From Lepidurus packardi (Eukaryota > Arthropoda > Branchiopoda > Notostraca > Triopsidae): DNA of 64,000 bases. The notes below the pieces were generated by a model. The model was not told where the DNA came from. It saw only the letters and a program-made list of their open reading frames with translations, and did not search any database. The stretch spans positions 3,601,001 through 3,665,000 of the forward strand of contig JAKZAN010000006.1 of the NCBI GenBank assembly GCA_023053545.1, written 5' to 3'. The position numbers and the translations under genes were made by a program. Of this stretch, positions 8,190 through 28,900 are shown one piece after another. The stretch's first letter is position 1; each line of letters starts with the position of its first letter.

Positions 8190-8246
8190 TTCAGTGAACC
8201 TTTGTAGCTGAAGAACGTTTCGTGTCCTTACTCTACGGACTTAAAA
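8190..8246 (+). other. RPLP2: RPLP2 5'UTR exon (approximate 5' end)
   Basis: The P2 coding exon begins one base after a splice acceptor (CTTGTAG, 8668-8674), so an upstream non-coding exon is required. The best donor is GTAAGT at 8247, after the segment ending TACGGACTTAAAA. The 5' end is an estimate. The resulting 428-nt 5'UTR intron carries no recognised RNA gene. Confidence 0.5.
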
Positions 8247-8675
8247 GTAAGTTGTCTCTTGAATTTCTGAGTTTCTTAGTTGTTTTGTATTAAAATGTTT
8301 ATAAAAGTAAAAACTTAATAAGGTGCAGTATTGCAAATTACGGTGTCGACGTTCTGTTTCTGAAAAAAAAGTATTAATCCTACCTACCACATGCATTGCT
8401 CTTGTCACGTTTCAGGCGTGCCTTAAAGCATTGCATTTTAGTCTCGTTTATCTTAATCATCCTTCGTCAAACCTTTACATTATAATGTTATTATATTTGA
8501 TAAATATCTGGCAAGTAGTTATGATGTGAAACATGCCCTATTTTTCCGATATTCATGACGAATAAGGTACGGATCCAATTCCTGACGCTACTTGCCCATA
8601 GCATTTAAAATTGACAAGCTCTGTTAAGCGTAGAACAGCGATCGTTAAAAATTATAAAAATACATATCTTGTAGA

Positions 8676-9541
8676 ATGCGTTACGTCGCAGCCTACGTAC
8701 TTGCCGCCCTCGGTGGAAATGCTTCGCCATCAGCAGAAGATTTGGAGAGGATATTGAGCTCAGTTGGAATTGAAGCCGACTCCGCCAAAGTTGCGAAAGT
8801 CATCAGCCAGTTGAAAGGAAAGGACCTAGCGGCAGTGATGGCTGAAGGTAAAAGAAAATCATGCAATAGTTTCTGCGTTTTTTTAAATTTTATTTTTAAA
8901 AAGACATATAACAGTCCAAATCATTTTACTGGGGAGAAATTCTGGGTTACTTTAAACGAAGTCTGACGTACTGAAATTTTCTCGAGACTGTTATAAGCCT
9001 CTTTAAGTTTAACATGATGTTTTTTACCATCTTTCGGCTGACACCACGCTGATGCCAGTTATCCAGAGCTGATACATTTACTTATCTAAAGATGTTAATA
9101 ATTGTCGGCGATCCTGAACTTAACGTTTACTACGTTTGTACTTAATAGGATCCAAAAAACTGGCGTCCATGCCTGCTGGTGGTGCCGCTCCCGCTGCTGC
9201 CGCCGTGGCTGGTGGTGCTGCGCCAGCTGCAAAGGGTATGTTAATGCTTTATACGTAGGCTACAAAACTTTGTATTTTGCTCGTGTTAGCATTGCACGCA
9301 AAATGACTCAATGAGAGTGTTAGTATGATGCCAATATCTAATTGCTTGTATTCCGATGAGCAATAACCCGTGTTTCTGATTAACTAACTTGCTAGCTGGA
9401 TTTTTGCTCGTGTGACAATAGTTGTGAACTATTTATCGACGGGTGTCATTTGTCTTTTTAGCCGAGGAGAAGAAGAAGGAAGAGAAGAAAGAAGAATCCG
9501 AAGAGGAAGATGATGATATGGGTTTTGGCCTGTTCGACTAA
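8676..9541 (+). CDS. RPLP2: 60S acidic ribosomal protein P2
   Basis: Part of the ribosomal stalk, where P1-P2 dimers on uL10 recruit translation GTPases. Three coding exons, 8676-8847, 9149-9235 and 9462-9541, give 112 aa, the canonical P2 length. The N-terminal dimerisation domain starts MRYVAAYVLAALGG and contains ILSSVGIEADSAKV. An Ala/Gly hinge follows in exon 2, then a charged Lys/Glu stretch and the invariant stalk tail EEEDDDMGFGLFD, which binds elongation factors. As in many ribosomal-protein genes, the introns hold box C/D snoRNA candidates (9004-9085 and 9319-9388). The stop is followed by about 100 bp before the next transcription unit on the same strand. Confidence 0.98.
9004..9085 (+). 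ncRNA. Box C/D snoRNA candidate, copy A (28S rRNA guide), in RPLP2 intron 2
   Basis: Boxes seen: C-like ATGATGT at 9014-9020, D' CTGA at 9038-9041, C' TGATGCC at 9050-9056 and D CTGA at 9069-9072. A weak terminal pairing TAAGT/ACTTA flanks it. The 12 nt before D' (ACCATCTTTCGG, 9026-9037) are complementary to the conserved large-subunit rRNA segment CCGAAAGATGGT. By the D+5 rule they target the second A of GAAAG, the site known as Am1511 in human and Am807 in yeast (guides SNORD32/SNORD51, snR39/snR59). Ends are approximate. Confidence 0.7.
9319..9388 (+). ncRNA. Box C/D snoRNA candidate in RPLP2 intron 3, target unassigned
   Basis: A perfect 6-bp terminal stem (GTTAGT 9319-9324 with ACTAAC 9383-9388) encloses a C-like box ATGATGC (9325-9331) and a D box CTGA (9376-9379) preceded by ACCCGTGTTT. 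This is the classical layout of an intronic C/D snoRNA of about 70 nt. I could not assign an rRNA target. Confidence 0.55.
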
Positions 9542-9734
9542 AGACCGTTCCTTTTGTTGGAGCGGTTTCTTGTGTTTTTTAATACAAGAATACGTTTACG
9601 TATACGGCAGTTTTCGAATTAATATTTTAGGCTTCAATTTGGGACGTTCTTACTTCAACCTTTCTTCCGTCAGTATTTCGGGACCATAAAAAGATGGTGA
9701 GTAGCCTCCTTTCGTTTTACATTGTCTACAAACC

Positions 9735-9812
9735 CTTGGCTGATGATTCTCAATCACCATCTTTCGACTGAATTGTTTTGATGTATTATTTTTCAATAAA
9801 CTGACGCTTGTA
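9735..9812 (+). ncRNA. Box C/D snoRNA candidate, copy B (28S rRNA guide)
   Basis: Boxes: C CTGATGA (9740-9746), D' CTGA (9768-9771), C' TGATGTA (9779-9785), D CTGA (9801-9804). The guide TCACCATCTTTCGA directly precedes D' and targets the same large-subunit rRNA adenosine as copy A; only the base next to D' differs. It lies in intron 1 of the putative host gene. Confidence 0.72.
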
Positions 9813-10091
9813 AAATAAGCGTGAGTAATTCATCTAGTAGTGAAATGATTTAATGATATACTGTGTTTTGTAGACGTTTCAAACGAAGCCCGTTCTATGG
9901 CGTCCGAGTTTCAAGTTCTGCGACTCAACAGTTCATTGGTACTCGTATTGTAAAAGGTATTCGTAGGTGTTTGAATTACATTAGCTGGGGTTTTGTAATA
10001 CTTGGTTTTAAGTCGGGGTTCAAAAGCTAGGAATCTCTTATTAACTTTTAAGTAATTCACAAGGTTTTAGTTACTTATTGCTACGTACGTA

Positions 10092-10122
10092 CTTCTACTT
10101 TTAACATTGTTAAAAGTTGAAG
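10092..10122 (+). repeat. Short perfect-like hairpin in intron 2 of the putative host gene
   Basis: CTTCTACTTTTAAC (10092-10105) pairs with GTTAAAAGTTGAAG (10109-10122) with one mismatch and a 3-nt loop. Too short for a miRNA precursor. It could be a structural element of an unrecognised intronic RNA, or chance in AT-rich DNA. Confidence 0.5.
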
Positions 10123-10499
10123 TATTAAGCACAGGTTTATTGTTGCTTCTGGCATGTTGCTGATGGTCCGTCACTTCGTTAACCGTGTTCGGGAAACCAA
10201 CGACTGGGATAGGTATTCAGTTTTTCTTTTCTCGAATAAAGCGATTTTTTGTCTAATCACTTGGAAATTGTCTGATGACTTCACGCCCGGGCCTATGATT
10301 AATTGGGTTTCCCGTAATTTTGTATTGTTCCTTTTTATTTTTACTACTCGGAGAGAAGAAAAGGCGAATTTTACCACATTAGCTGATGATTTGTTTTCCA
10401 TGATAGGTAGTTTGGTATTTTCGTCCGTTTTCCGTGACGGTAACATCCCTCGCTTCATGTCTAGGTGAGTTGTACTAGTAATTGTCTGTAGTCACATTC

Positions 10500-10572
10500 T
10501 ATTTACATGATGCTATCCATCACCATCTTTCGACTGAGACTTTGATGCAAACCTTTTTGGACTGATGAATTT
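10500..10572 (+). ncRNA. Box C/D snoRNA candidate, copy C (28S rRNA guide)
   Basis: Boxes: C-like ATGATGC (10507-10513), D' CTGA (10534-10537), C' TGATGCA (10543-10549), D CTGA (10562-10565). The guide TCACCATCTTTCGA (10520-10533) is identical to copy B. It lies in intron 4 of the putative host gene. Confidence 0.7.
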
Positions 10573-10711
10573 CTTACAAAACGCTTTGCGTTTGTTGATA
10601 AAGCATAGCGCTTAATTGTGTTTCTTTCTCGCTTTCAGGTGATGCTCGACTGTGTTTTGTGGTATTTCTTAAACTTGCAGAAAAAAATACATTTCCAAAA
10701 TTCCAAATTGT

Positions 10712-11769
10712 TTATTCATCATAAGCAAACAAGGGAGGGTATGAGCGCTTACATAAAGTGTTACGACGAGGATGATACAGTTTGTGTAAAAAAAGGTTTT
10801 TGAGTTGTCCATGTAAGTTTGCACCAACATACAGTAATATCAAGCTAAAACCTTGCGCAAGGGAATCGCTATGCAAGTTCCATACAAAATGCTTGAATTT
10901 TAAAACTACAAAGGCTGTGAAGTAACCCTGAAGCCACAGGTGCTCAGAAATGCTTAGCACCATGGCAGATTTGAATAAGAGCGACATGTGGGGATGGGTG
11001 GGAGGAAGGTAGCCCAATGTTAAAAGGAGAAACACAATACTACAGTTTAGCTTAATTACGTACCCCAAGCATTCGATTGTTTGCGAGGTAGCTACTAGAG
11101 TTTCACTAAAGCCGTAGCTTATGCCCCAAATACACCACGCTGTCAATATCAAGTACTCCAATATTAAACCAATGGATGTTGGCTCGCCTAAGAAACGACG
11201 AACTATGGTCCGCAGTGTCACGCGATTTTCGCTTATCAAAATTATTATTATAAAGCCTAAATCGTGTAAGGACCCCAAAGCGAACCATAACTGAGAGAAA
11301 AATAAAACGGGTAGCCCCCACCTTATGGGTAGGAGAAAATCCGGTTGCGTTTGAACAACGCAAGAATCATCTTGGGTCACCCTTGACGTATTAGCATACA
11401 TGTCGCACCAGGCAATAGAAACAAACTGTGCGCAGAATGTGATTTCCAAGGCGAAAGATACCAGCCGGACAATTAGCCAAAGTATCGTTAAGATTACTAT
11501 GATCCTCGGCGATTCTTCACCCCATAACCGGACCTGTTGGTACGACTTTGTTCGGCGTAACCTTGTTACCAAATCGCTCTTGTTTTCCTATATTACATTA
11601 AACACCTCAATCAGTTACAAGCAGGCATTTTAGTTCTATAGTATTCAAATACCTGCGCAGTTATAGTAGAGTTCTGCGACCGCATAAGCAAACAAGAAGA
11701 TTCATCGTCACTCTCGTATTTGGTTTCACGCTTATCCCCAGCTTCGAACTGTACTCTTACACTGTCCAT
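10712..11769 (-). CDS. Unrecognised multi-pass membrane protein (about 6-7 TM)
   Basis: Two exons (minus), 11653-11769 and 10712-11587, in phase, give 330 aa. The first 50 residues are polar and acidic (MDSVRVQFEAGDKRETKYES) with no signal peptide, so a cytosolic N-terminus is likely. Hydrophobic segments follow at about residues 65-95 (IIVILTILWLIVRLVSFALE), 130-160, 180-207, 213-235, 240-270 and 288-305. There is a short loop with two Cys between the first two (YANTSRVTQDDSCVV), and a basic C-terminal tail (HKLYHPRRNTLCKRSYPP). I do not recognise the family. A chemoreceptor-like or lineage-specific TMEM protein are possibilities. It is divergent from the carboxypeptidase D gene and convergent with the snoRNA host gene. 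Confidence 0.8.
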
Positions 11770-12337
11770 CGCAGTTAGTTGATTTAGCAACGGGGCTTTT
11801 ACCCATTCTTATTTATAGAGGATGTCTCCCAACTGACTTACTGGTCGGGAGGTAAACTTGCAGTGAGACCTTGAGACGGAAGATGTTTTACTACCTTTTC
11901 ATAGCCAAGGGTGCGTATATCCGACGCAGTTACCCTGCGTAGACCGACCCCGTTTCCACGAACACGATGTTTTTCCCCTCCACAGACCACTACTGTAGAT
12001 GACCTTGCATTCGTTCCACTTATCCCAGGCTAATATTGTAGTGCAAGCTAATGAACCCTAGCTTGGATTCCCCGATATTTTCGGCTTTTAATCTTCTCAA
12101 AATTAGATTAGGTAATAAAAACTCACGAGAAACATGCAGGTCAAAAGAGCCCGTGATAATTGTTATTTAAACTAATTGCAATTTCGCACTCTTCCTCAGC
12201 CGGGTTTAAATTTTGGCGCTGAAATGTTCGAAGTGCCATCTATCCGCTGAGATGGAAAACATGTGTTGTGTACCAAGAACTTGAGGTCAAAACACTGCAC
12301 GTAGGACTAACTTGGCAGATGTTGGGAAGTTCGTACC
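11770..12337. promoter_or_regulatory. Divergent intergenic region, membrane protein / CPD
   Basis: About 570 bp between two divergent start codons. No ORF, RNA gene or repeat was recognised; presumed to hold both promoters and 5'UTRs. Confidence 0.4.
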
Positions 12338-15300
12338 ATGGTTATCTTTACATTTTTTGTTTTAGTTTACTGTGCTTGTCACGCAAGTAGTTCAGCAAGT
12401 GAAATTTCATATCTACCTGCAAGGATTTCCAGACAATCGAATTATATTTCCAATCCAATATCTGCCTTAAATGTGAAATATCTCCATCACGATGATGTCG
12501 AACAACTGTTTTCTAGTCTAAAAAAGAACTTCGCCAATTTAGCAAGATTACATGTGATTGGTAAATCTGTATTAGGTCGTGATTTATATGCCATCCAGAT
12601 TACCAGTAATGTCACACAACCGAGAGCCTTAGGGAAACCTATGTTCAAATATGTTGCCAACATGCATGGAAATGAAGCCATAGGCCGACAGCTTGTTCTT
12701 AGTCTCGCACATCATTTACTCCATGAATATGGAAAAAATGATCGTATCACATCCTTGGTTAACAATACGGACATTTTTCTCATGCCAAGTATGAACCCTG
12801 ATGGCTTCGAAAAGGCTAAGGTGCGTAAGATATATACCGTAAAATGATCGATCTTTACTGTGATATTTTTCTTTTTTTTAGGAAGGCGATTGTGAGGGAG
12901 AGAATTACGACTCTGGGCGCGAAAATGCAAACAATGTCGACTTGAATCGCAATTTTCCTGACCAATACGACCCACTGCCTGATAAACTAACGGCCGACAG
13001 GGAACCGGAAACGCTAGCGTTGATGACCTGGATTGCCAACAACCCATTCGTTTTGTCTGGCAACTTGCATGGAGGATCTGTAGTAGCCTCATACCCTTTT
13101 GATGACACGAGGTAAAGTGCTGCTGTCAGTAGTAGTATTTGTCGTTTTAGCTTATACGATTTTTTTTTTTTATTTTTAGACAGCATCATAATTGTTGTGT
13201 GAACGGAACTAGTCCTGATGAAGCTACATTCCATCTCTTAGCGTCAATATACGCAAAGAAACATTTCAACATGCATACTGGAACCGTCTGCCCTGATGAA
13301 AAGTTTCCAGGCGGTGTAACAAATGGAGCATTTTGGTACGACGTGCCTGGAGGCATGCAAGACTTCAATTACGTTCAATCAAACTGTTTTGAACTCACTT
13401 TCGAACTTTCCTGTTGCAAGTATCCCAATGCTTCTAACCTGATGACTCAGTGGGAATACAACAAAGAAGCTTTGATTTCGTTTATGGAAGCTGCGCACAT
13501 GGGTTTCAAAGGTTCGACCATTACACGCTCGTTGTCATATCGATTGTTAAATGGATTTTTAGGGCTAGTGACGGATGAAGTAAGCGGCCAAGGGATAGCC
13601 AAAGCTGTTATTGCTGTCTCTGGTGTTGCGCACAATATCACCAGCACAGATAGTGGAGAATATTGGAGATTGCTGGTACCTGGCAATTACACTGTTCAGG
13701 CACATGCATGGGGGTAAGCAGAAAACTAGTGTCTTCAATCCTGATTGAATACATTTTCGTTTCTCTTGTAGATACGAATCTGTCTTGTCCTCAAAAATTA
13801 CTGTTATTGATGGAAAACCGACTATTTTGAACTTCAAGCTGAAGCGAAGTCCACGATTAGAAGAAGCTTATAATCCACCAAACACGTCGTCGCTGCAATT
13901 GGAATTCAAACATCATAATTATGAAAGCATGAAGGCATTCCTAATTAAAATTAAGCAAGACTACCCCGATATAGCCAGACTCTACAGTATCGGTACCAGT
14001 GTACAAGGAAGAGAGCTGTATGTTTTAGAAATTTCTGACAACCCAGGGATTCACGAATTAGGTAAATTATTTATATTTTAATGAATGATTGTAAGGCTTG
14101 GATTTTATTGTAGGCGAACCAGAGTTTAAGTACATAGGAAACATGCATGGAAACGAAATCGTTGGCCGTGAAATACTGCTGAACCTTATTGCGTATCTAA
14201 CTGGCAATTATGGTGTAGACGAGAGGGTAACAACCCTAGTTAATACTGTACGCATACACATTATGCCGTCGATGAACCCAGATGGCTATGAAATATCGAG
14301 AGAAGGTAACATTTTACTTCAAAAAATATTTTTGTTAAGACATTTCTTACCTGTATAGGAGATAGCCAAGGGATAGATGGACGAGCAAATGCGCGCGGAA
14401 AAGACTTAAATCGCAATTTTCCAGATCAGTACATAGTTAATGACGTAAGTACCTTAATGCTTTTAGAATAGATCTTGTTGTATGTTTCATTTCCATTACT
14501 TAGGAAAACAGAGTGCAAGAACCGGAAACGTTAGCAGTAATGAAATGGGCCAAGACCTTTCCGTTTGTCCTTTCAGCTAATCTGCATGGAGGATCCCTTG
14601 TAGCAAATTACCCCTTCGATGACAATCCTACAGCGGAAAGTGAAAAGTATTCTGTCTCTCCGGACGATACAATTTTCAGAATACTAGCGTCTTCGTACAG
14701 CGAGGTACATTTACTAGTATTCCCAATGACTTGTTTAGGTAATCCGTAATTATATAATAATTATGGCTCTTAAGGCGCACCCGCGGATGCATTTGGGAGA
14801 GCCCTGTCCATCTTCAGGGATGTTACTGTCCGAGAAATTCCCTGGAGGCATTACCAATGGAGCGCAATGGTATAGCGTTAGTGGCGGAATGCAAGACTGG
14901 AATTATTTACACTCGAATTGTTTCGAAATTACCATTGAAGTAGGTTGCTTCAAATTTCCGCATTCAGATGAGCTGAAATCATTTTGGGAGGACAACAAAG
15001 AAGCCTTGCTAACTTACATAGAAAACGTAACTGACGATTTGCTTAGCTTCTTGTTATGAGATGCTTATACTTCTGTGATTATTAGGTTAGGACTGGCTTG
15101 AATGGTTTTGTGTTTAATAATCAAGGGGAACCATTACCAAATGCTAAGATTTTAGTATCGGGGATTGATCACTTCATAACCAGTGCCGAGACGGGAGACT
15201 ATTGGAGACTTTTGGCGCCGGGAGAGTATAAAGTCACTGTAACAGCGACAGGGTATTTCTGTTGTGTTAAACAAAGTGTTTCCGTTGAAAGCGTTATTTG

Positions 15301-18300
15301 TTGGAATAGGTACGGTCACCAGACTCGAAATGTCCATATTCCAGAGAAGGGATCCTTAACTGTAAACTTCACACTGCCTCCAGATATTCTTCGGATTTGG
15401 TCCCAAAAGTTGGACTACGACATAGCAGAAAATATGCTGTCGGAAAAATACTTGAGCAATGCCGAATTAAATGGGGCTCTGGCTGACATAGAAAACGAGT
15501 TCCCTACTATTGCAGAGTTTGTAGCTGGGGAAAGCGATTGGAGCATACTTGTGCACGCTTTGAAAGTTGGCATAGAGGTAAAGGAATGTGTTAGCTTAAC
15601 TTGCACTTGCAATTTTCACAATTGTTTGCATAGGAGAATAGTTCTAGGAAAAAGCTACAAGTGGCCTTAATTGGAGGACTATTTGGCTCACAGCCAGCTG
15701 GAAGAGAGCTACTACTTCGATTTAGTCGACATATCTGCCATGCGATTTTCAAAAAGGATCCGAGGATTTTAGATGTCATGCAGTATATTGACCTTTATAT
15801 CATTCCTGCAGTTGATTCGTCCGGTTTTAATAATGCCAAGTCTGGTAAACAAAACAAAAAATTTGCAACGCACATAGTAGCACTATAAGTTTTTCTGCTT
15901 TATGTTAGGTCAGTGTAGTTATAATTCATTAAGCGACATGCTTGAGGAAGTAGGATCCAAGTTTGGTGTTGATCCTGATGCCCCACAAACGGTAACAGCC
16001 TTAAGGTCCATGTTTAGAGCCTTGAGTATCAATGTTGGCTTGAGCATAGAAAGCGGCGGCATTTTCGTGAGGTAAAACGTATAAGGTCGGGTTTTCTAGT
16101 TACATTCCTTTTCTTTATCTGCAGATATCCAAAAGACCAAAAAGGAACAGTCAACGCCATTACCGCGGAGGAGAGAATCTTTCATAGGTTGGCAGAGAAA
16201 TATATGCTGGCTCATCCAACTATGGCAAGTCTGAAAACGAACCCTTGTTCGCAAGATGGACGCCCAAGTTCGGCAGTTGGACTTAGACATGGAGCCGATC
16301 TTAAGGTTTGAAAGATTTGGATGTTACTTTTATCTCCAGATGAAGACAAACGTTGTATTGTTTAGGTATTTTCTGGAACGCTGTTGGACTGGGCGTTTGA
16401 CAACTTGGGTAGTCTGGTAATAGGAGCCCATGTGTCTTGCTGCAATTATCCTTTACCAGAACATTTACCCACGTTATACCAAGAGAACCTTGAACCCATG
16501 AAAGTTTTCTTACAAGCTATACTTCAAGGTACTTTGCATTTTGGATTTAGCTCATGTGGCAAATTTAAGCTAACCTTTCTTTTCCGAATCAGGTGTACAG
16601 GGTGAAGTGATTGCATCTGACGGACATCCATTACCTAATGCTACTTTAGTTATTACCAAAAGCGCACGGTCCGTCTCTTTACATCCGTCTACTGCCACAT
16701 TTATTGAAGTGCTCGAAGAGGGAAGCCATATAATAAACGTGCGTATTTGCTACTTACGATAATTTGTTTTCCGAGCCATTCAAACTATCACATAGGTTGC
16801 CTTGCAAGGATATGAAAGTAGAAATGTGCGGTTTGAAGTCCAGGCTGGAAATATTACCAAGATGCGTGTAATGCTTGATAAGCTAGAAGGACAGATGATG
16901 TATCAGAGTCTTCATGTTATGGAAGATACGATGCGAGAATGGAAAAAAATTTACCCAGGGATTAGTTGCTTGCAAAGGTAATAATTTAAATTGTAAAATT
17001 ATATTGTCGTTTGATTCCTTCAGTATGTTAATGTGTCCGTAATGTTCAGTTTGGGCCTTACAACGCAACAGCGTCATACCTGGTCTGTGCTGCTAACACA
17101 AGATGCTACTTACCTATGCGGGACCCCGTCCAAAATTAAGGAGCGCCCTTCTAAGTCGGTAGTGTTTGCTCCTCCAGTCTTGATATGGGCTCCGGGTGAT
17201 GCTCCAGCAGCTACAGCCATTGTTTTCCAACTAGCAACTTACTTGGTTACCCATAGCGAAGACCCAGTCGTTAAAGATCTTCTAAAAAATTTCAGGTACT
17301 CCCACTTCTCTTGTCCAAGATAATTTTTGTTAAAAAAATTAACATTGCTTAGGATTTATTTTATACCTTCTGCGGATCCGGATTTGACAGCGCAACTAGA
17401 AAAAGAAGTTCATATTGGCTGCGAGAAGACCAAAGCCTCGTCCTTACCGTCAGTCCTAGCCGATTGGGCTGAAAAGGAGCGTTTCTTGTTGAACCTCGGT
17501 GTTGATACAGGAAAGTATGGAATTCTGCCTTTTGGTCATTTCCCATCCAACAGCTCTGTAACCGAGGTAATTTCTGTCGTATAATAGTACAATTATATTA
17601 ATGAATGTCTTGCACAGTTTTTGTCACACGAACATCTTATGAAGCTGATGAAAAGCTTCGAAGTTCCAGCATGTTCGACTATCCCTAAATTGGATATGCA
17701 GCGAAAGTTTTCAGTAGGTTATTTTTAGTTTTATGAGAGTATAGGTGTTTATGGATCGGACCGTTTCTAGGATATCTTGGAGAACGCCACATCTACTCCG
17801 TCTGTGACTGTTATGCCGTCGTGCTGTGCCAAGCCTGAACCCAAGGAATTGGCAATGGATTGGGCTAGGATAAAGCCGGTGCTGCTTTCATTGCTAGGTG
17901 ATAGCAAGCAATACGTTTCCGGGTTTTTATTGAATGCGTACAACGAACCCATTGTTGGTCTTATTGAATTTGGGAGAATTAAGCTGAGAAATACGGATTT
18001 GGGAGCTTTTTGGGTGCTAGCGAGCCCTGGTGAATATGTGATAACGGCCTCGGCGGATGGTTATTATGCTACTACGAAGGCCGTTCGGGTCTTTGACGGT
18101 ACCCCTGCGAATCTCAATCTTCGGTTATCGCGAGACGAGCGTGTAGCTGGAATTCCTCGGATGGTATTTGTATTACTAACGGGCTCTACCTTGTTGGTTG
18201 GATTGATCGTGTGTTTGTGTTGTTATGCTGTGTGTTCGAAGAGATTTCGGAGGAAAGATATTGGCTTTCAACTTCTTCCCCGTCAGCCAATGCTTTTTGA

Positions 18301-18517
18301 AGACGACGACGAAGATGAGTTATTTAGCACGCCTTCCAAAAAAGTGTTTAAAAGAACGATGCCTCAACGGGTAATGGGTAATAGATTAGGCCAATATTAT
18401 GACGAATCTACGGAGAGTTCCAGCGGGTCTGAAGATGGAACTGATGTTGCACTTTGTCGCCAGCCTGACAAAGGACGCTCGATACAAATTGGTTTTCGAA
18501 ATGGAAAGAATCTATAA
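12338..18517 (+). CDS. CPD: Carboxypeptidase D (silver homologue) with four carboxypeptidase-like repeats
   Basis: An M14B metallocarboxypeptidase that trims C-terminal Arg/Lys from peptides in the trans-Golgi and endosomes. Twenty exons (12338-12820, 12882-13111, 13180-13511, 13563-13713, 13772-14061, 14114-14305, 14359-14444, 14504-14704, 14775-15026, 15086-15577, 15634-15844, 15909-16071, 16125-16305, 16366-16528, 16593-16738, 16796-16977, 17050-17295, 17353-17566, 17618-17713, 17771-18517) give 1685 aa. Residues 1-20 are a signal peptide. Repeat 1 has zinc ligands His110/Glu113 (NMHGNE), [15 protein letters not shown], and FELTFELSC with the catalytic Glu. Repeat 2 has the same set (His507/Glu510). 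Repeats 3 (about 860-1215) and 4 (about 1220-1565) keep the fold and transthyretin-like modules but have lost the HxxE zinc motif. TM about 1568-1590, then a tail with [10 protein letters not shown]. Human CPD has three repeats and about 1380 aa. Confidence 0.95.
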
Positions 18518-19968: not shown

Positions 19969-22900
19969 TTAGCATTCGGTGAAGGAAATGTGACTTTTTC
20001 CCCTTTGCTCGTTTGAGGCCAAAGTTCGCTCCAACTCATCCGCACTGACCGGCGTCATACCGACGTTGGGCTGGACCTGACACAATACCCGATCCCCGTT
20101 CAACACAGCTACGGCCAAACTGCCATCATTGATGGGGAAAAGTAACTGTTCCGTGTAAGCTGTCTGCAAGTGTTCATTTGAGGGATACTGCTGCTGCTGT
20201 TGTTGTGGCGTTAGTAATTGTCCATGCCTATCTCTGTGACGTGCTTTCAAGTGTGGCGAGCTAAAAGCGCAACTGATCGTGGTCAGTAAATCGCGATTAT
20301 TGGTGTTGTTGACTTGCTGCTGGTTATAAGGAATTAAAGGCCGATGGTCTCCGTAGGACCTCGACGACTGCCTGCTCACGTCACTATTGGGACGGCGATT
20401 GTCTTCATCACTGAGATCAGAATGCTGGGCGCAGTGTCCGTAAACACAATCACTGTTGGCGCTTCGCTCGATTTCTTCATACACTGGATCGCATGTCTCG
20501 GGGTCCTCCCGCAACGTGGGATTAAGCGCTGTCAAGGGAGCTGTGCGATAGCGTAGGTCAATCTCGGTGTAGGTATGATTCCAAGGGCTTCCCGAACGCA
20601 GTCGCTTAGATGCCTTATGTAAATGTGGGTAAAGTTTGGACGCCGACGCTGTCGCTTCATTCTCGCGTACAAACTGGGCCACCAGTTGTGCATCCAAAGC
20701 GGCATTATGAGAGAGGGCAGGATTAGGTACAGGATGTGGAAACGCCCGGCGACCCATGCTCCCACCGAAACCTTGTGGGTGGAACGGTGAAGCGCGTTGA
20801 GAGTGATTGCTAGAAGGAAAGGCTACAGAGCGAGGGGAATCTTCTTGTTCAGAGCCACCATGACCAGAATCGTGTCCATAAGACTTAAAAGATGCATTCT
20901 AACAAGATAAGAGAAAACGAGGTCGTTAATTGAGCAATTCCATGATTTTAAAAGGAGCAGAAATGGAACTACGTGTGCTACGTACTTCATTCTCGGTGTG
21001 TGGCAGAGTGAGTGCTCCAGTTCCTCGGAGACTGCCCTGGGTGTGAAGGGTGTGTGCTTGGGGGTGGGCTATTGGCAATGTCTGGCCGTGTCCGAGTGCC
21101 AGGGCCTGGGCTGTAGCTAAGGCACTGCCCGTGGGCGTGGCACTGGAGCGTAGACTGCCCATGCCTGGGGTTGTACCCGTGCCGGGACCCGACCACGACC
21201 GTACTAGGTACTGCAAGAATGAAAACAAACACAAATTACAGACCTTTGCCAAAAATATACACTAATAAAGCTGGAAATGGACCAAATGTCTCGGTGTGTC
21301 CATAAGGGGACCTAATATAACCAATCACCAAGCGCACCAAAGCAAGCTCCAAGTTGTGGAGGGAACTGGAGTTATGCAGCCACAATTTTTTAAGCTTCGG
21401 GTCTCGCGAGAAGTCAGAATACCGTAAATTCCCATGTCAATGTTGTGAAATTGAGCTATCGGCATTAGAAAATACAGAAAAAAACAAGCCTTTCCTCGCT
21501 AATCCCCCCTGCGTAACTTGTGGACTACCTTGGTGCGCTGGAGCAGCCGGCAAAGGCAAGGGCCCTGCCCTTATAGGTTGGATCCACATCGAGCCCGGGT
21601 AAGCTTCCCCTTCAGCTATGCCCACTTCCAGCCGACACGGTATAAGAACTGCTGGATGATGACGATGGCTGTGGCTATGACTATGGCCTACAGGAGGTGC
21701 GGGCCGAGAGGTCTCGACCATCGCATGACATGTTACATCTACTTGGGCATAAGGCCGGACTGTATCACGATCTCCGCAAGGCGCGCAAGTATCAGAATCG
21801 CTTGCGCTAGTATCAGTTTCAGTGGTAGCGGATTGTGTAGACGAAGACGACACTTCCACGTAGATGGAAGCCGGATGCGACAGGGTATGGGTGTGGGCGT
21901 GGCAAGCATACGGACAACTTACATTGTTCGGTGTATGTGAAGCGCCTGTGCTGCTCGTTGACTGGGAATGTGGGCATGACGGTGTGGCGTTGTACAACGA
22001 AGACGTTCGTTCCTTGGAATCGGAAGCCTCCAAATGAGCAGCACGTAAACACACTTGAAGCCACGTGTGCTGACGAACTAACTTGCGGTACTCCTTCCGA
22101 ACCTACGACGAAAAAAAAATATCGAGCTTAGCGGACAAAAGCTCAGTGATACAACGAGTCTTACCTTATCGTTTTGCACGCAGTGGAAGAAGAAAATAAA
22201 CAGCCCTTGAAGACTATTCAGGATAGTGAACACGTATGCCATGACGATGGTGGCTTGGTTGATGTAGAGCAATCCGAAGGTCCACGTCAGTCCCAACAAG
22301 AAGACCAGAACGAACGCGCCCCGCAGCCAAGAACTAAAATGGTAAAATTGAATAAGATTTCAAATAATCAAACCTCACAAATATATAGGACAGGACAAGT
22401 ATCACATTAACACACACACATACATGCTTGAAGCCTTTCCAAACATCGTAAGTTCCAGCACGAGTGGCGTAGCTTTTAGCTCGACACATAAGACCAGCTA
22501 GAGCCGTACACTGGGCATATGAACCGGAAGCCAAGCAAATAACGAGCATGCGATAAATTCGCTTACACGTGGTAGGTCAATTTGCTGAGCAAGGCGTCCG
22601 CTTTGCCATCACTAGCGACACCCACGTGGAAGTCGAGGGATTAGTAAGAAAAAAAGATACCAGAGTAACTACTAAAACTCGTGCAGTGCAACAATGTCTA
22701 CTATTCTACTTTGAAAACAAAAGGCAAATTTTTAATAAATAAAATTGCCAAAAGAGTAAGAGCAGGAAGACTGTTATTACCTGGCACTTGCTAAACGAGT
22801 TTGTTCTTTTGTTTTCATAACCGCATTCGCACTCCTGTGGCGACACATCATATAAATGGCCATGAAGAGGAACACGAAGTTCGCCTGCAGAGAAGAAAAA

Positions 22901-25900
22901 AAAGACGATGGCGCATTAAAAAACCGGTTACAGGCTGACCCTTCTTCTTTGAAAATTCTCAAACGTACCAGCAAGATCAAGATAACGGGGCCAACAAATG
23001 CGAAGATGAAATAGTTGTCCGTACGGAGCCAGCAATAGCGTTCAGTGCCATACGAGAAAGGATCCACCACGCAGGAAATGGCCACTATCAAAGTGGGCAA
23101 GCCATAAGCGAAGAGATAATACCACTTGATGCGGGACTTCTCCGTCTCGAAAACTTCTACCAGCATCACATACAATTGAAAACCTAAATCGGGATCGCAA
23201 AGCAAGAGTCAAATAATGGATCATGTTACTGACACGACGGTTATAAGGTTCTAACGTTACCTTCCAAGAACATCCACATGAACGCACAAAGGAAGAAGAA
23301 ATGAAGGAGCCCAGCAACGATGCCGCACAGTATGGGTTGATGTGTCTGCTGGATCCCGGCCAAGAAAATGACTTCGGCAATGAGGAGGCACATACACAGG
23401 TTCTTATGAATCGTGGTCCTATCAGACTGTGGAACAGAGAAGAGGGGAAAGAAGGAGAAAAAAAGAAGACGAAAAAAATAAAAAAAGACAAAAGAACATG
23501 AAATGGGACGTTAATAAAAGTGTGGGTTGGGAATATTTTATGCCGCTATAAATTACTTTGAGTCCGCGGAAGCATTGGAAGGTAAGGATGGCCAATAATA
23601 AGCAGAGAATGGAGATGGCGCATCCCACATAGGTGATTAACGACAAAGCGGCTTCTTGGCCTGGGCTCAGCACGGTGGAATGCAAGTCCATTAGCAAGGC
23701 AAAATTGGTCAAATGGTCGCATTTGCAAATTGTATGACTCCGGTTTGTGTCCAGAACGCGGCAGCCTTCATCGGACCATGCACTATGGCAACCCATACAA
23801 GAAAAAAAAAGTTATTACAAAACAGTCAGGAACGAAAATTTCAAGATTGAGTTATATAGTTACCTGACTGTATAATCCCAGAAGACACAGGAGGGATTGG
23901 ACACGTTGTCTTGCCTCAGATGTTTCAGAGTTAAGGTTACCGGCTGCGGCAATTGAATATGTCGACCCTTCCCAAGTGACGCAGAAAGAACCCGCGAATT
24001 CACAATCCGTGTAGAGTTGCCCGCACTCCACTTTTCCCAAGCTTCGCGATCTCGCATGGGGAAAGAAAGCGTACCAGAGCCTTGTGGATACCGCCCTTCT
24101 TCCAGGGGTGACAGGATATCTTCCAAATTGTTATAGGCGAAAAGAACAACGCGGACCAGGCCAGCTTCACTGTTATCCAATAGTGCTTCAGGAGGTATGG
24201 TGATCACATCGTCGCTGGGACCCCAAACTTCCCATTCTTCAGCACCAGGAAAGCTCAATTCTGAAAGTTGTCTGGATTCCAAGACTCTGACAGACATCAC
24301 TGTCAAGGAAACCGAAAAATTAGTTTCCATTTTGACTCCCCCACAAAAAAAAGTTATTTGACTTACATATATTTTTCATGGATTGGACGGTACTCTTTTG
24401 CCTGGTCATTGTATTGGCTAGTAAAAAGGCGTTTTCTTCCAAGCCCGTAAGTAAAGCGGTGGCTGTTGCTCTGGCTTGCTGTTCCCTGAATCCCGATAAG
24501 CTAGCATGGGATTCTGTAGCCAGTCCCAAATCTCTCCATGCAAGACTTTGCGAGGGCTCTAATAAACTAGATCCTGCTCGCATCAAGCTTTGGACGAGCT
24601 CCGTGACGATAGCTTCACGCTGCCGCCAATCTGGGAAAGCTTGTAAATCTAGCGCCATCTTGAGGGCCATTTGACGCAATAGTCGCGTTGCTGCAACCAT
24701 ATCACCGCCATAGAGCGTCTTGGAGGCCGTTACCTGCGACGAAACACATTACCCATGAGAAACGTCTACACTTGGGTTTATACAACCACCACCGAATTTA
24801 CGTTTAACCTTTACTCACAAGCTATGTAAACTCCATCTCAATCCCCCCCTACCCGAATATAAGCACACACATCCTATTGCGTCAAACACCCCCTTATTTC
24901 CCTCTCTGACCCAATCACCCCACCATGCTTTAGAAAGGCGGGGATGCTTTTCCGGGTTATATATATATATATATATATATATCCTATGTCAATAATGTGC
25001 GCATTTCTATGCAAACAAGAGTAGGATAAGGTGATTGCGAAAGGGAAAAGCCCCCACAAAGAAAAACATAAATGCAACGGGAAAGATCCTGAAAGGATGC
25101 GACGGAGCAGAGAAGACGGGTGATTTACACACTTTTATATGCAAATTACTTGGCCCATCTAATCACGACGCCATTACGCATGCAAACATGAGGGTGAACC
25201 ACCCAGTCCCCCTCCATTTTTTTTCTTCTTCTAGGACCTGTGTCGTGATACTAATATGCCAAAAAAAAAATCAATCTAGTCCAATCATATTGGAAATTCA
25301 AGCTCCCACTCTAGCCGACCCACTCTAAGCTCCCACTCGAGCTTTCCATAAAGATTTTGCATGTTTTAAGAAAAGAAAGCCGCCAAAAGTTACCAGGCTT
25401 GAGGAGTAAAGAAGGACTATAAATCCGAGAGCATATATAGTATGCAAGAGTGTCGCTGTGAGTACAGGTCCGTTGTTGTTGTTCTTACCTGAGCCAAGTC
25501 ATTTGCAATGGAGATGAGGGAGTCGCCTTCACCAATCCGCGATTCTAAGCTCGTAAGCCACACAGACTTGCATTCGCTCAAATCTGGAGCGGCAGGGAAC
25601 CAAGCAGCCGGCGAAGGTCCTGTCGCTGAAGAGGGTCTTTCTTCTGCGTTAATTCCTCCGCCATTCCTCAACGACGCATAACCCGGTCCGGCACAGCGCC
25701 ATCGAGCGTAGCCCGTGGCACCCCCTGGACAAGGCTGTACAATGACATCTCCAGCTCTGGTCCAGTTCCAATACAGTCCTCGTGTCACCGTCGGCGGACA
25801 GTAGGACGCGTCGTCTGAAGGCGGTATTAAAGGCAATTTGCCTTCCAAAGACGGATACGCCGGACGCCGGGTGGTAGCTACACACAAAAAAAATACACAA

Positions 25901-28900
25901 TAACAAACAAAGAAAACATTAAACAGTTCTTTTTCTTTGCTTGCTCCCATTGCCCAGAACAATAAAGAACCACCCAAATAGGATAACATACTTGACGGAG
26001 GCGGGGTAATGGGCTCGTTGTCGGTTTCGAGGCCATGATCGTGCTGCATTATGATGGTCACTGACGTGGCGGTCGTGGAAGTGGGCGAATTCTGTTGATC
26101 TCGGTCGCGATCAAGCCACTTATGGGGTCCTACGGCCATTCCCCGTTGCCCCATGACATCGGGCACCGGAACAGTGACCGAATTTTCTTCGTGCAGCACC
26201 GGAGGTAAGGGCGTCGAAGTGGTCGTTTTGGTTGTCATTAACGTCGTGGTTTGGTTCACGCCTCCAGGCAATTCTTCACCTACAAGGTCTGCACCACTGG
26301 GCGATTTGGCTGGTGATGCAGCGATCGTTGTAGCGGCTACTGGGCTCACCGGTTCAGTTACAGCCGTTGTCGTCGAAGACGTGGTTGATGTACTGGTGCT
26401 ATTTTCCATGTCAGGCTTGGCAGTACTCCATAGTGCCGGACCCACGGAACTAAACCAAGGCGGCCTCGGTCTGGACGTGGACGAGGTAGGTGTGGCTATG
26501 ATAAATCAGCAAGACAAAAAGACGATATTAGACAAGCGGCCAGGGTGCGTCACTGACTATTCCCCCCCTCCTCCTCTCGTCTCCTGAAATTAAAACTGTT
26601 TCAGCTGACCGAGGAAAACAATGTCAGAAGCATACAATTCTAGTTCAAGTGTCGTATTAAGATTCCCCCGCATCAGCTGGTTCTTTCCGTTTTCTTTTTG
26701 GCAACATACCTGGTACGCATTGATAATGGGCTTCGAGATACTTGAGCGTTCCTGGGCAAGGATCCCCAAATACCGTCGTGCTTGCCAAAATGGAGCAATT
26801 GCTTTGCTGATTACATCTGTGAATAGACAACAGGACACCAAGCGCATTAAGATAACAAGATACAATAATCAATGGCATCAATGCATGCAATATACCGCGT
26901 TCCTCTGCAGAATAACTCGCTCGCAAGTTTCCAGCCGCCGCAAACTCTGTCCTGACTCACGTTAGCCCTTTATACAGCACGCAATGCGTACAAGCTTAAA
27001 GAGAGCCAAGGGGAGCTTATAAAGTTCGTTACTATCGAGTGATTGACGTGCGTGCATGTTACCTATTTTCTAGTAAACGAAAACAGTCCCTTTCTCTAAG
27101 CTTTTCATGCAGCTTGCTCTTCCGTTGCTAAAGAGCTTTTGAACCGTACCTGGCACGTCGTAACGGGTTAAGTAACGTTGGCATAAACGAATGTCGAGCC
27201 GGCTTTGCGTTTTATACACGGTATCAAATGCTCTCACTCTACTCCCACCCCGATTCCCCTTTTTCCTTGATTAGATCGACGCCCAAGCAACGGACTTTAA
27301 AGCTATAAGGCGATCATCATTGTTCCCAATTTAGTTGCTTGGGAATAGAAGACGTCCTGGGGCGAAAGAACAACGATTTCGTAGGATATTGATGAGTGCG
27401 GGAGAGGGGGAAAAAATCACTTCCACATCTTTCCTATCTTCGCCCGCCAAGACGCAGAGCGCCATTACGGGCCATAAATTGCGGCCGCCTGCCGGTGAGA
27501 TACGCCCCTTAGTCACACCCCCCTTCCTGCATGGCGCGCACGATGAGAGCCAGAGATTTGAGTGTATTACGAGAAAAGAAATACCGATACTTTTCAGAAT
27601 AGACTGCTTTTCTTCAAAAGGGTCATATAAAAAAAAAACTTCCTTTTAAAAAATATTTTACTGAGCCCTAGTAAGGAACTCGGGACACAACAATAGACGA
27701 TTGCAACAACACAACTTATCGCGTCTGGAAGAGTATAGAGGGAAGAAAAAGAAGAAAAGGATGGAGACGACGAAGTGCTGCCTCGAGGGATCGCCATGGA
27801 TGCACATACACAAACTCGAGTCTAGAAGATTTAAATTCATGCTCAACTCTCAAGGGGGGAGCTCTAGCACCGAGGGGTGTCAATAGTCGATTTCTCGCTG
27901 GCTTAGCATCGCTCTGTACGCAAGACAAGACAACACACCCAGACGAAAAAAGGGGGCTGCCTAGCAAAGACAAATCTCGAAAAGTTGTCTTCCTTTTCAA
28001 TCTGGACTTGATTTTGCAACTCAAAGCCGCGCATTCTAGATGACAATTCTGGGCAAACTATTCTTTGAACTCCCGGTGTCTTTAAAGAAAAGCTTTGTTG
28101 CTCTCATTCACATTTTTTTAACGATTTTTAACTCCCTTCGCGCCTCCGAATTATTCCACGGGATTCGGGCCTAATTACACTGAGCTAGCTGTTAAGGTTA
28201 GGGCAATTACATGCCATATCAGGCTGACGATGCAGCGCACGGAAAGGGGAAAGAAATAAAAATCATGACGGCGAAAGAGCTTTTCAGGTTTTGAGGTTTG
28301 ATGAATATAGAGTCGCGGACAGAATCACTGGGCGCTCTTATGGAAGAGTTTTCTGGTCCCTACCAAGCTCGCTGCATTCCCTCTCCAGCAAGTCCTTTAG
28401 GGTCCAAGGTTGCGGATCTTTTTTGTATTCCGGGCTATATAAAAAATATCCTAGGCGCCAATGGAACAGCAATAATGATGGTCTGGTAAGCTAAGCGGCA
28501 ATAAGCCCGAAGGAAAAATATAAAAATCTCTTCTCTCTATATAAGACAAAAAAGAAAAAAACAACACATTTTTCACCTTTTAGGTAGCTAGACAAACCGG
28601 TTTTGAGGGCTGGGCTTGACAACGCTAGTTGCGAAAGCTGGTGGCGTCCATGATAAAGAGTCAACAGACGACATAACACTAGACTCAGCCAAGCGAGATT
28701 GCTGGAGTATTTGAAGACAACACTCAAGTACCGTTTTTTTAACTCCCGCAACAGTTTTATGGCTCCCAAAAAAACAAGAAAAAAGATGGAAATGGCGTAA
28801 AGTTGCGAGCCACATTATAAACGGGAGATGTTTATAGCAAAAAAAAAAAGGCCGCAAGCAAATTTTCTGTACTGTTGGTTCCTCTTCTATGATGTATCTC

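Follow-up and report, generated by a model that had tools for sequence, protein, structure and literature searches.

Three predicted intron-encoded box C/D snoRNAs share one 28S rRNA guide across RPLP2 and an adjacent unit in Lepidurus packardi

Results

We analysed a 64,000-nt stretch of the Lepidurus packardi genome (hereafter the window), revealing three elements that we interpret, with a probability of roughly 0.88 on sequence grounds, as intron-encoded box C/D snoRNAs of the U51/U32/snR39/snR59 group, all directed at a single 28S adenosine. This reading is based on their boxes, complementarity to the species' own rRNA, a guide–D′ block with no exact match elsewhere in the genome, and D boxes situated 69–89 nt before predicted 3′ splice sites. 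Each snoRNA would be transcribed with its host and released by splicing of its intron, the excised intron would then be trimmed to the snoRNP, and the antisense before D′ would position fibrillarin at the central A of CGAAAGAUGG in 28S. With one copy in RPLP2 and two in a small adjacent unit, the guides would be redundant in the living organism.

C/D snoRNAs have C (RUGAUGA) and D (CUGA) consensus boxes near their ends and C′ and D′ boxes internally, and all three copies carry C, D′, C′ and D in that order, with each C box deviating from the consensus by one base. Copy 1 (9009..9077, plus strand) lies in RPLP2 intron 2 and contains a C box ATGATGT (9014-9020), the guide ACCATCTTTCGG (9026-9037), a D′ box CTGA (9038-9041), a C′ box (9049-9055), a second guide AGTTATCCAGAG (9057-9068) and a D box CTGA (9069-9072). 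Copy 2 (9735..9809, plus strand) lies in what is predicted to be the first intron of the second unit, with C box CTGATGA at 9740-9746, guide TCACCATCTTTCG at 9754-9766, D′ at 9768-9771, C′ at 9778-9784 and D at 9801-9804. Copy 3 (10502..10570, plus strand) lies in the predicted last intron of that unit (10465-10638) and combines the C box ATGATGC (10507-10513) with the same guide TCACCATCTTTCG (10520-10532), D′ (10534-10537), C′ (10542-10548) and D (10562-10565). A preliminary description of this DNA had placed three copies here, and the boxes bear out all three places, but the limits it gave were a few bases too wide; the outer ends given above are themselves estimates.

The distance from the end of the D box to the predicted intron end is 76 nt in copy 1, 69 nt in copy 2 and 73 nt in copy 3, compared with 89 nt for a further putative snoRNA at 8511-8596 and 82 nt for a weak candidate at 9319..9388 (both described below), and spacing of about this length is typical of intronic C/D RNAs. 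Copy 3 has a terminal stem of 5 pairs (one G–U), one base off the boxes. Copies 1 and 2 form outer stems only, with no stem adjoining the boxes (UCUUUA/UAAAGA in the fold of copy 1; missing from the centroid fold of copy 2), and none of the three copies folded better than its shuffles. A stem-and-box scan missed both copies 1 and 2 because no stem lies directly beside their boxes, and returned four places within 8200-10700 and four more in the rest of the window. One of these, 10272-10386, was dropped on account of its length (115 nt), its antisense of 8 nt and its overlap with a predicted splice site.

The RPLP2 coding region spans 8676..9541 on the plus strand (exons 8676-8847, 9149-9235 and 9462-9541), and its spliced protein matched Pfam PF00428 (3.4e-25) and P2 chains in the PDB (best E 1.1e-38), which confirms the host gene proposed earlier for copy 1. 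The numbering of that intron as the second, also taken from the earlier account, holds provided that the predicted 5′-UTR intron (8247-8674) is real.

The complement of the shared guide, CGAAAGATGGT, is present in this genome's own 28S gene, which includes GGGACCCGAAAGATGGTGACC. Watson–Crick pairing to it extends over 12 nt in copy 1 and 13 nt in each of copies 2 and 3, giving every copy at least 10 nt of rRNA antisense upstream of D or D′; a duplex-extending TC is found in copies 2 and 3 and is missing in copy 1. The methylated nucleotide is set by the D′+5 rule, which here predicts as target the central A of CGAAAGAUGG / CGAAAGATGG in 28S, equivalent to human Am1511, in the register that had been proposed. 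A guide for the CGAAAGAUGG adenosine is the mark of the U51/U32/snR39/snR59 group, to which the three copies accordingly belong by guide. In the excerpted text of PMC3511168, AtU51 Am814, U51/U32a Am1511 and SnR39/59 Am805 are listed as one site, and U51/U32a and SnR39/59 are assigned to clan CL00054.

On a loose pairing score the three D′ guides (32-32.5) exceeded all 60 control sites (best, 31). Between 8200 and 10700 there were eight rRNA antisense 12-mers on the plus strand and none on the opposite strand, and five antisense runs of at least 12 nt, each ending 0-1 nt before a CTGA, with none on the other strand. The window contains 386 CTGA boxes (plus strand, 184; minus strand, 202). Only five of them have a perfect rRNA antisense at least 12 nt long ending 0-2 nt upstream; these five lie on the plus strand, within the snoRNAs reported in this study, against 0/202 on the minus strand. 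An 11-nt threshold would not discriminate, since 5/184 boxes on the plus strand and 4/202 on the control strand then qualify. The 28S target set used for these counts holds an insert-like stretch, whose only effect is to add chance matches. In the rDNA on contig C16 (L058), the distance between two 28S anchors is 4.2 kb; 28S is usually shorter than this implies, and the gene there looks as if it carries an insert.

No Rfam family reached its gathering threshold anywhere in the window, and the best matches, with E-values from a 2.6-kb search spanning 5.4e-4 to 0.17, were to clan CL00054 families and nematode ceN109. Copy 1 matched RF00535 (Me28S-Am982; 28.4 bits, E 0.051) and, as its best match by E-value, ceN109 (27.0 bits, E 0.0023); copy 2 matched RF00535 (36.9 bits, E 5.4e-4) and ceN109 (20.9 bits); and copy 3 matched RF00280 (SNORD51; 33.8 bits, E 0.0019) and ceN109 (21.9 bits). 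The scores of 28.4, 36.9 and 33.8 bits fall below the 49-50 needed, although the gathering score is a curation threshold and not a biological trait, and the group assignment here is made by guide and site. A genome-wide profile search with RF00535 and RF00280 at E 0.001 gave no match and is uninformative, as 14 control genomes were also silent.

The second unit, whose introns contain copies 2 and 3, was placed at 9659..10700 on the plus strand, both ends being guesses; CCTTTCTTCC at 9659 is, we presume, a possible TOP-type start. Splice-like motifs delimit introns at 9697-9873 (containing copy 2), 9957-10134 and 10465-10638 (containing copy 3), with a possible extra intron at 10213-10406. No C/D candidate was found in intron 9957-10134, and folds of stretches from the two other introns were unremarkable (z -0.89 and -0.72).

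The unit had been suggested to exist mainly as a carrier of snoRNAs, which now appears doubtful, because it may instead be a protein-coding gene that hosts two of them; we consider coding and non-coding about equally likely. The three-intron model opens a 139-codon frame that begins at the first ATG (9694) and reaches its stop codon just inside the last exon (9694-10641), a length reached in 1/2000 shuffles of the spliced sequence and matched from that ATG in 3/5000, odds that are too favourable given that three splice models were tried and one was open throughout. Adding intron 10213-10406 reduces the longest frame to 55 codons, and the unspliced frame of 115 codons is within chance (37/500 shuffles). 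Joining the exons lifts the Pfam SAYSvFN match from 15.2 bits to 17.5 (E 0.0038), still under the cut-off of 25, and no other Pfam family exceeded its cut-off, no PDB match was found up to E 10 and no second copy of the unit was found in this genome. Compared with 10121-10468, 4/84 null frames have a higher codon score, while exon 2 in the 139-codon frame scores low (-0.171), both values coming from a test with scant training data in which RPLP2, one of the ten training pieces, was out of frame.

Three further frames lie downstream. At 10712-11587 on the minus strand, a 291-codon frame with hydrophobic stretches ends near the second unit and gave no Pfam match at E 1 or below; by eye, 12311-18517 (plus strand) resembles a multi-domain carboxypeptidase and 19969-26505 (minus strand) an adhesion-type receptor.

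The copies may also have partly different jobs, with copy 1 additionally guiding methylation of 18S G251 and the shared guide perhaps acting on another RNA, a possibility that we take seriously at somewhat below even odds. Immediately upstream of the copy 1 D box, all 12 nt of AGTTATCCAGAG are complementary to 18S, a feature that the preliminary description overlooked. This stretch pairs with positions 247-258 counted from CTGGTTGATC, and +5 falls on the G at 251 in the same count, the first G of CUCUGGAUAAC, so that copy 1 might serve as a double guide for 28S and 18S. The main guide of this copy (9026-9037) also pairs with 18S CTGAAAGATGGT, near the 18S 3′ end, through 11 Watson–Crick pairs and one G–U. 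Human U32A/B is itself a double guide, and U32A together with U51 acts on peroxidasin mRNA, according to excerpts of PMC2653536 and PMC6667457. On the other side, no comparable second guide was found in copies 2 and 3, and peroxidasin was recognised by eye in 0/31 guide complements outside the rDNA. The loose score of the 18S duplex (29) was matched or beaten by 3/60 control sites, which leaves the perfect 12-nt run as the one notable feature. The site table of PMC11542601, in the part available, lists a plant Gm246 lacking a human or yeast entry, which may or may not correspond to the predicted 18S target of copy 1.

The earlier account also overlooked a predicted fourth C/D snoRNA at 8511..8596 (plus strand), in the predicted RPLP2 5′-UTR intron (intron 1). 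It has a C box ATGATGT (8521-8527), the guide TACGGATCCAATT (8568-8580), a D box CTGA (8582-8585) and a 10-bp terminal stem (GGCAAGTAGT/GCTACTTGCC, one G–U). The guide is a 13-nt antisense to a second 28S site, where +5 is the second U of AAUUGGAUCC, a position that we take to lie near, not at, the U34/snR62 uridine. No snoRNA match to this element was found in Rfam up to E 10, and TGATG followed 8-24 bases later by TACGGATCCAATT occurs nowhere in the genome, the element's own C box lying farther upstream. A weak candidate at 9319..9388 (plus strand), in RPLP2 intron 3, has a C box ATGATGC (9325-9331), a D box CTGA (9376-9379) and a 6-bp stem (GTTAGT/ACTAAC); its rRNA complementarity is only 8 nt, and the scan that found it is the one yielding four places elsewhere in the window.

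Taken broadly, RPLP2 and the adjoining unit could make up a single cluster with four or five C/D snoRNAs spread over 2.1 kb, in which copy 1 would be a double guide adding an 18S methyl group that has no human or yeast counterpart, the intron-1 RNA would mark a further 28S uridine, and the triple guide would reflect selection that keeps the Am1511 site almost fully methylated. We regard this combined picture as speculative and somewhat doubtful. The further uridine is absent from the site table of PMC11542601 as excerpted, which steps from Um1892/Um2837/Um1888 directly to Um2114.

Returning to the three snoRNAs with a common 28S guide, we compared the copies with each other and searched the genome (108,557,554 bases in 344 contigs) for their guide. 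In the three-copy alignment, the 11-base guide, the cores of the C and C′ boxes and the D′ and D boxes are invariant and the remainder is mostly divergent. Between the host introns, blastn recovered the guide–D′ block (19 identical bases in copy 2 versus copy 3, and 15/16 versus copy 1) and, beyond it, only short matches at noise level, in agreement with the old origin proposed earlier, since only guide and D′ box still align. The copies may have arisen by duplication, as that account held, or through separate insertions, and selection may have retained all three. It is nonetheless conceivable, if unlikely, that only one or two copies make a working snoRNA and that the rest are decaying or barely expressed duplicates, as might be expected where the sequence outside boxes and guide differs nearly everywhere and copy 1 is without the TC of the other two. 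However, four boxes and the guide–D′ block are intact in all three copies amid introns whose similarity has fallen to noise, which argues against neutral decay.

The common guide that had been described is confirmed by ACCATCTTTCG, which occurs without mismatch exactly three times in the window. Guide plus D′ (ACCATCTTTCGNCTGA, the guide followed by NCTGA) has three exact matches in 108.6 Mb, all within this locus. The exact guide alone occurs at 54 sites genome-wide compared with 48 for the reversed pattern, so most such sites are due to chance. Among the 51 outside the window, 43 were inspected (12 in rDNA and 31 elsewhere) and none combined an upstream TGATG with a CTGA immediately after the guide; the other eight are all on C16, two being rDNA and six not inspected. 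One exact-guide site (L015) with CTGA two bases behind was rejected, having no C box upstream. With up to two mismatches, guide–D′ matched 190 sites compared with 145 for the reversed pattern. A chance resemblance without any snoRNA genes, which would fit the lack of an Rfam match at gathering level, is hardly credible and already contradicted by the guide–D′ counts, with three exact blocks in 1.5 kb, each with a C box upstream, against 0.20 expected genome-wide (assumed base frequencies), and TGATG upstream of 0/6 inspected one-mismatch sites (7 among the matches listed, the seventh, on C195, not inspected).

Discussion

Three predicted snoRNAs that share a guide add one more lineage with several redundant guides for the Am1511 site, after yeast, vertebrates and fly, and such recurrent redundancy at one rRNA site hints at selection for full methylation there. 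They also provide a clean example of boxes and antisense being kept while the remaining intron sequence diverges. Yeast, humans and flies were already known to have duplicate guides for this site, and the redundancy of U32A and U51 is stated in the excerpt of PMC6667457, which makes the present case well preserved but ordinary. Among the papers listed in a literature search, none named such an arrangement of intronic snoRNAs involving RPLP2 and U51, as judged from titles and the opening lines of abstracts.

The closest counterparts are SNORD51/SNORD32A of vertebrates and Me28S-Am982 of the fly, which, like the copies described here, have the same guide before D′, the same 28S site, membership of clan CL00054 and an intronic location. 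The nematode RNAs ceN108/ceN109 match the copies weakly in Rfam across the guide, D′ and C′, below gathering score. The hosts differ: in chicken, according to the available part of PMC2653536, this guide resides in EEF1B2, as opposed to RPLP2 and the second unit here, and RPLP2 intron 2 hosts the H/ACA RNA ACA52 rather than a C/D copy. Such differences are in line with the snoRNA mobility described in the excerpt of PMC3511168. The same excerpt reports that yeast, too, has several guides for the same adenosine (snR39/snR59), although there are two guides in yeast and three, across two adjacent units, in the locus analysed here. Non-coding hosts of the Uhg/SNHG type yield a spliced transcript that lacks a conserved reading frame. 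Clustered intronic snoRNAs are likewise found in the Drosophila Uhg genes, as outlined in the accessible portion of PMC13228274; unlike these, two of the three or four predicted introns of the second unit hold a recognisable snoRNA, and the unit may be coding.
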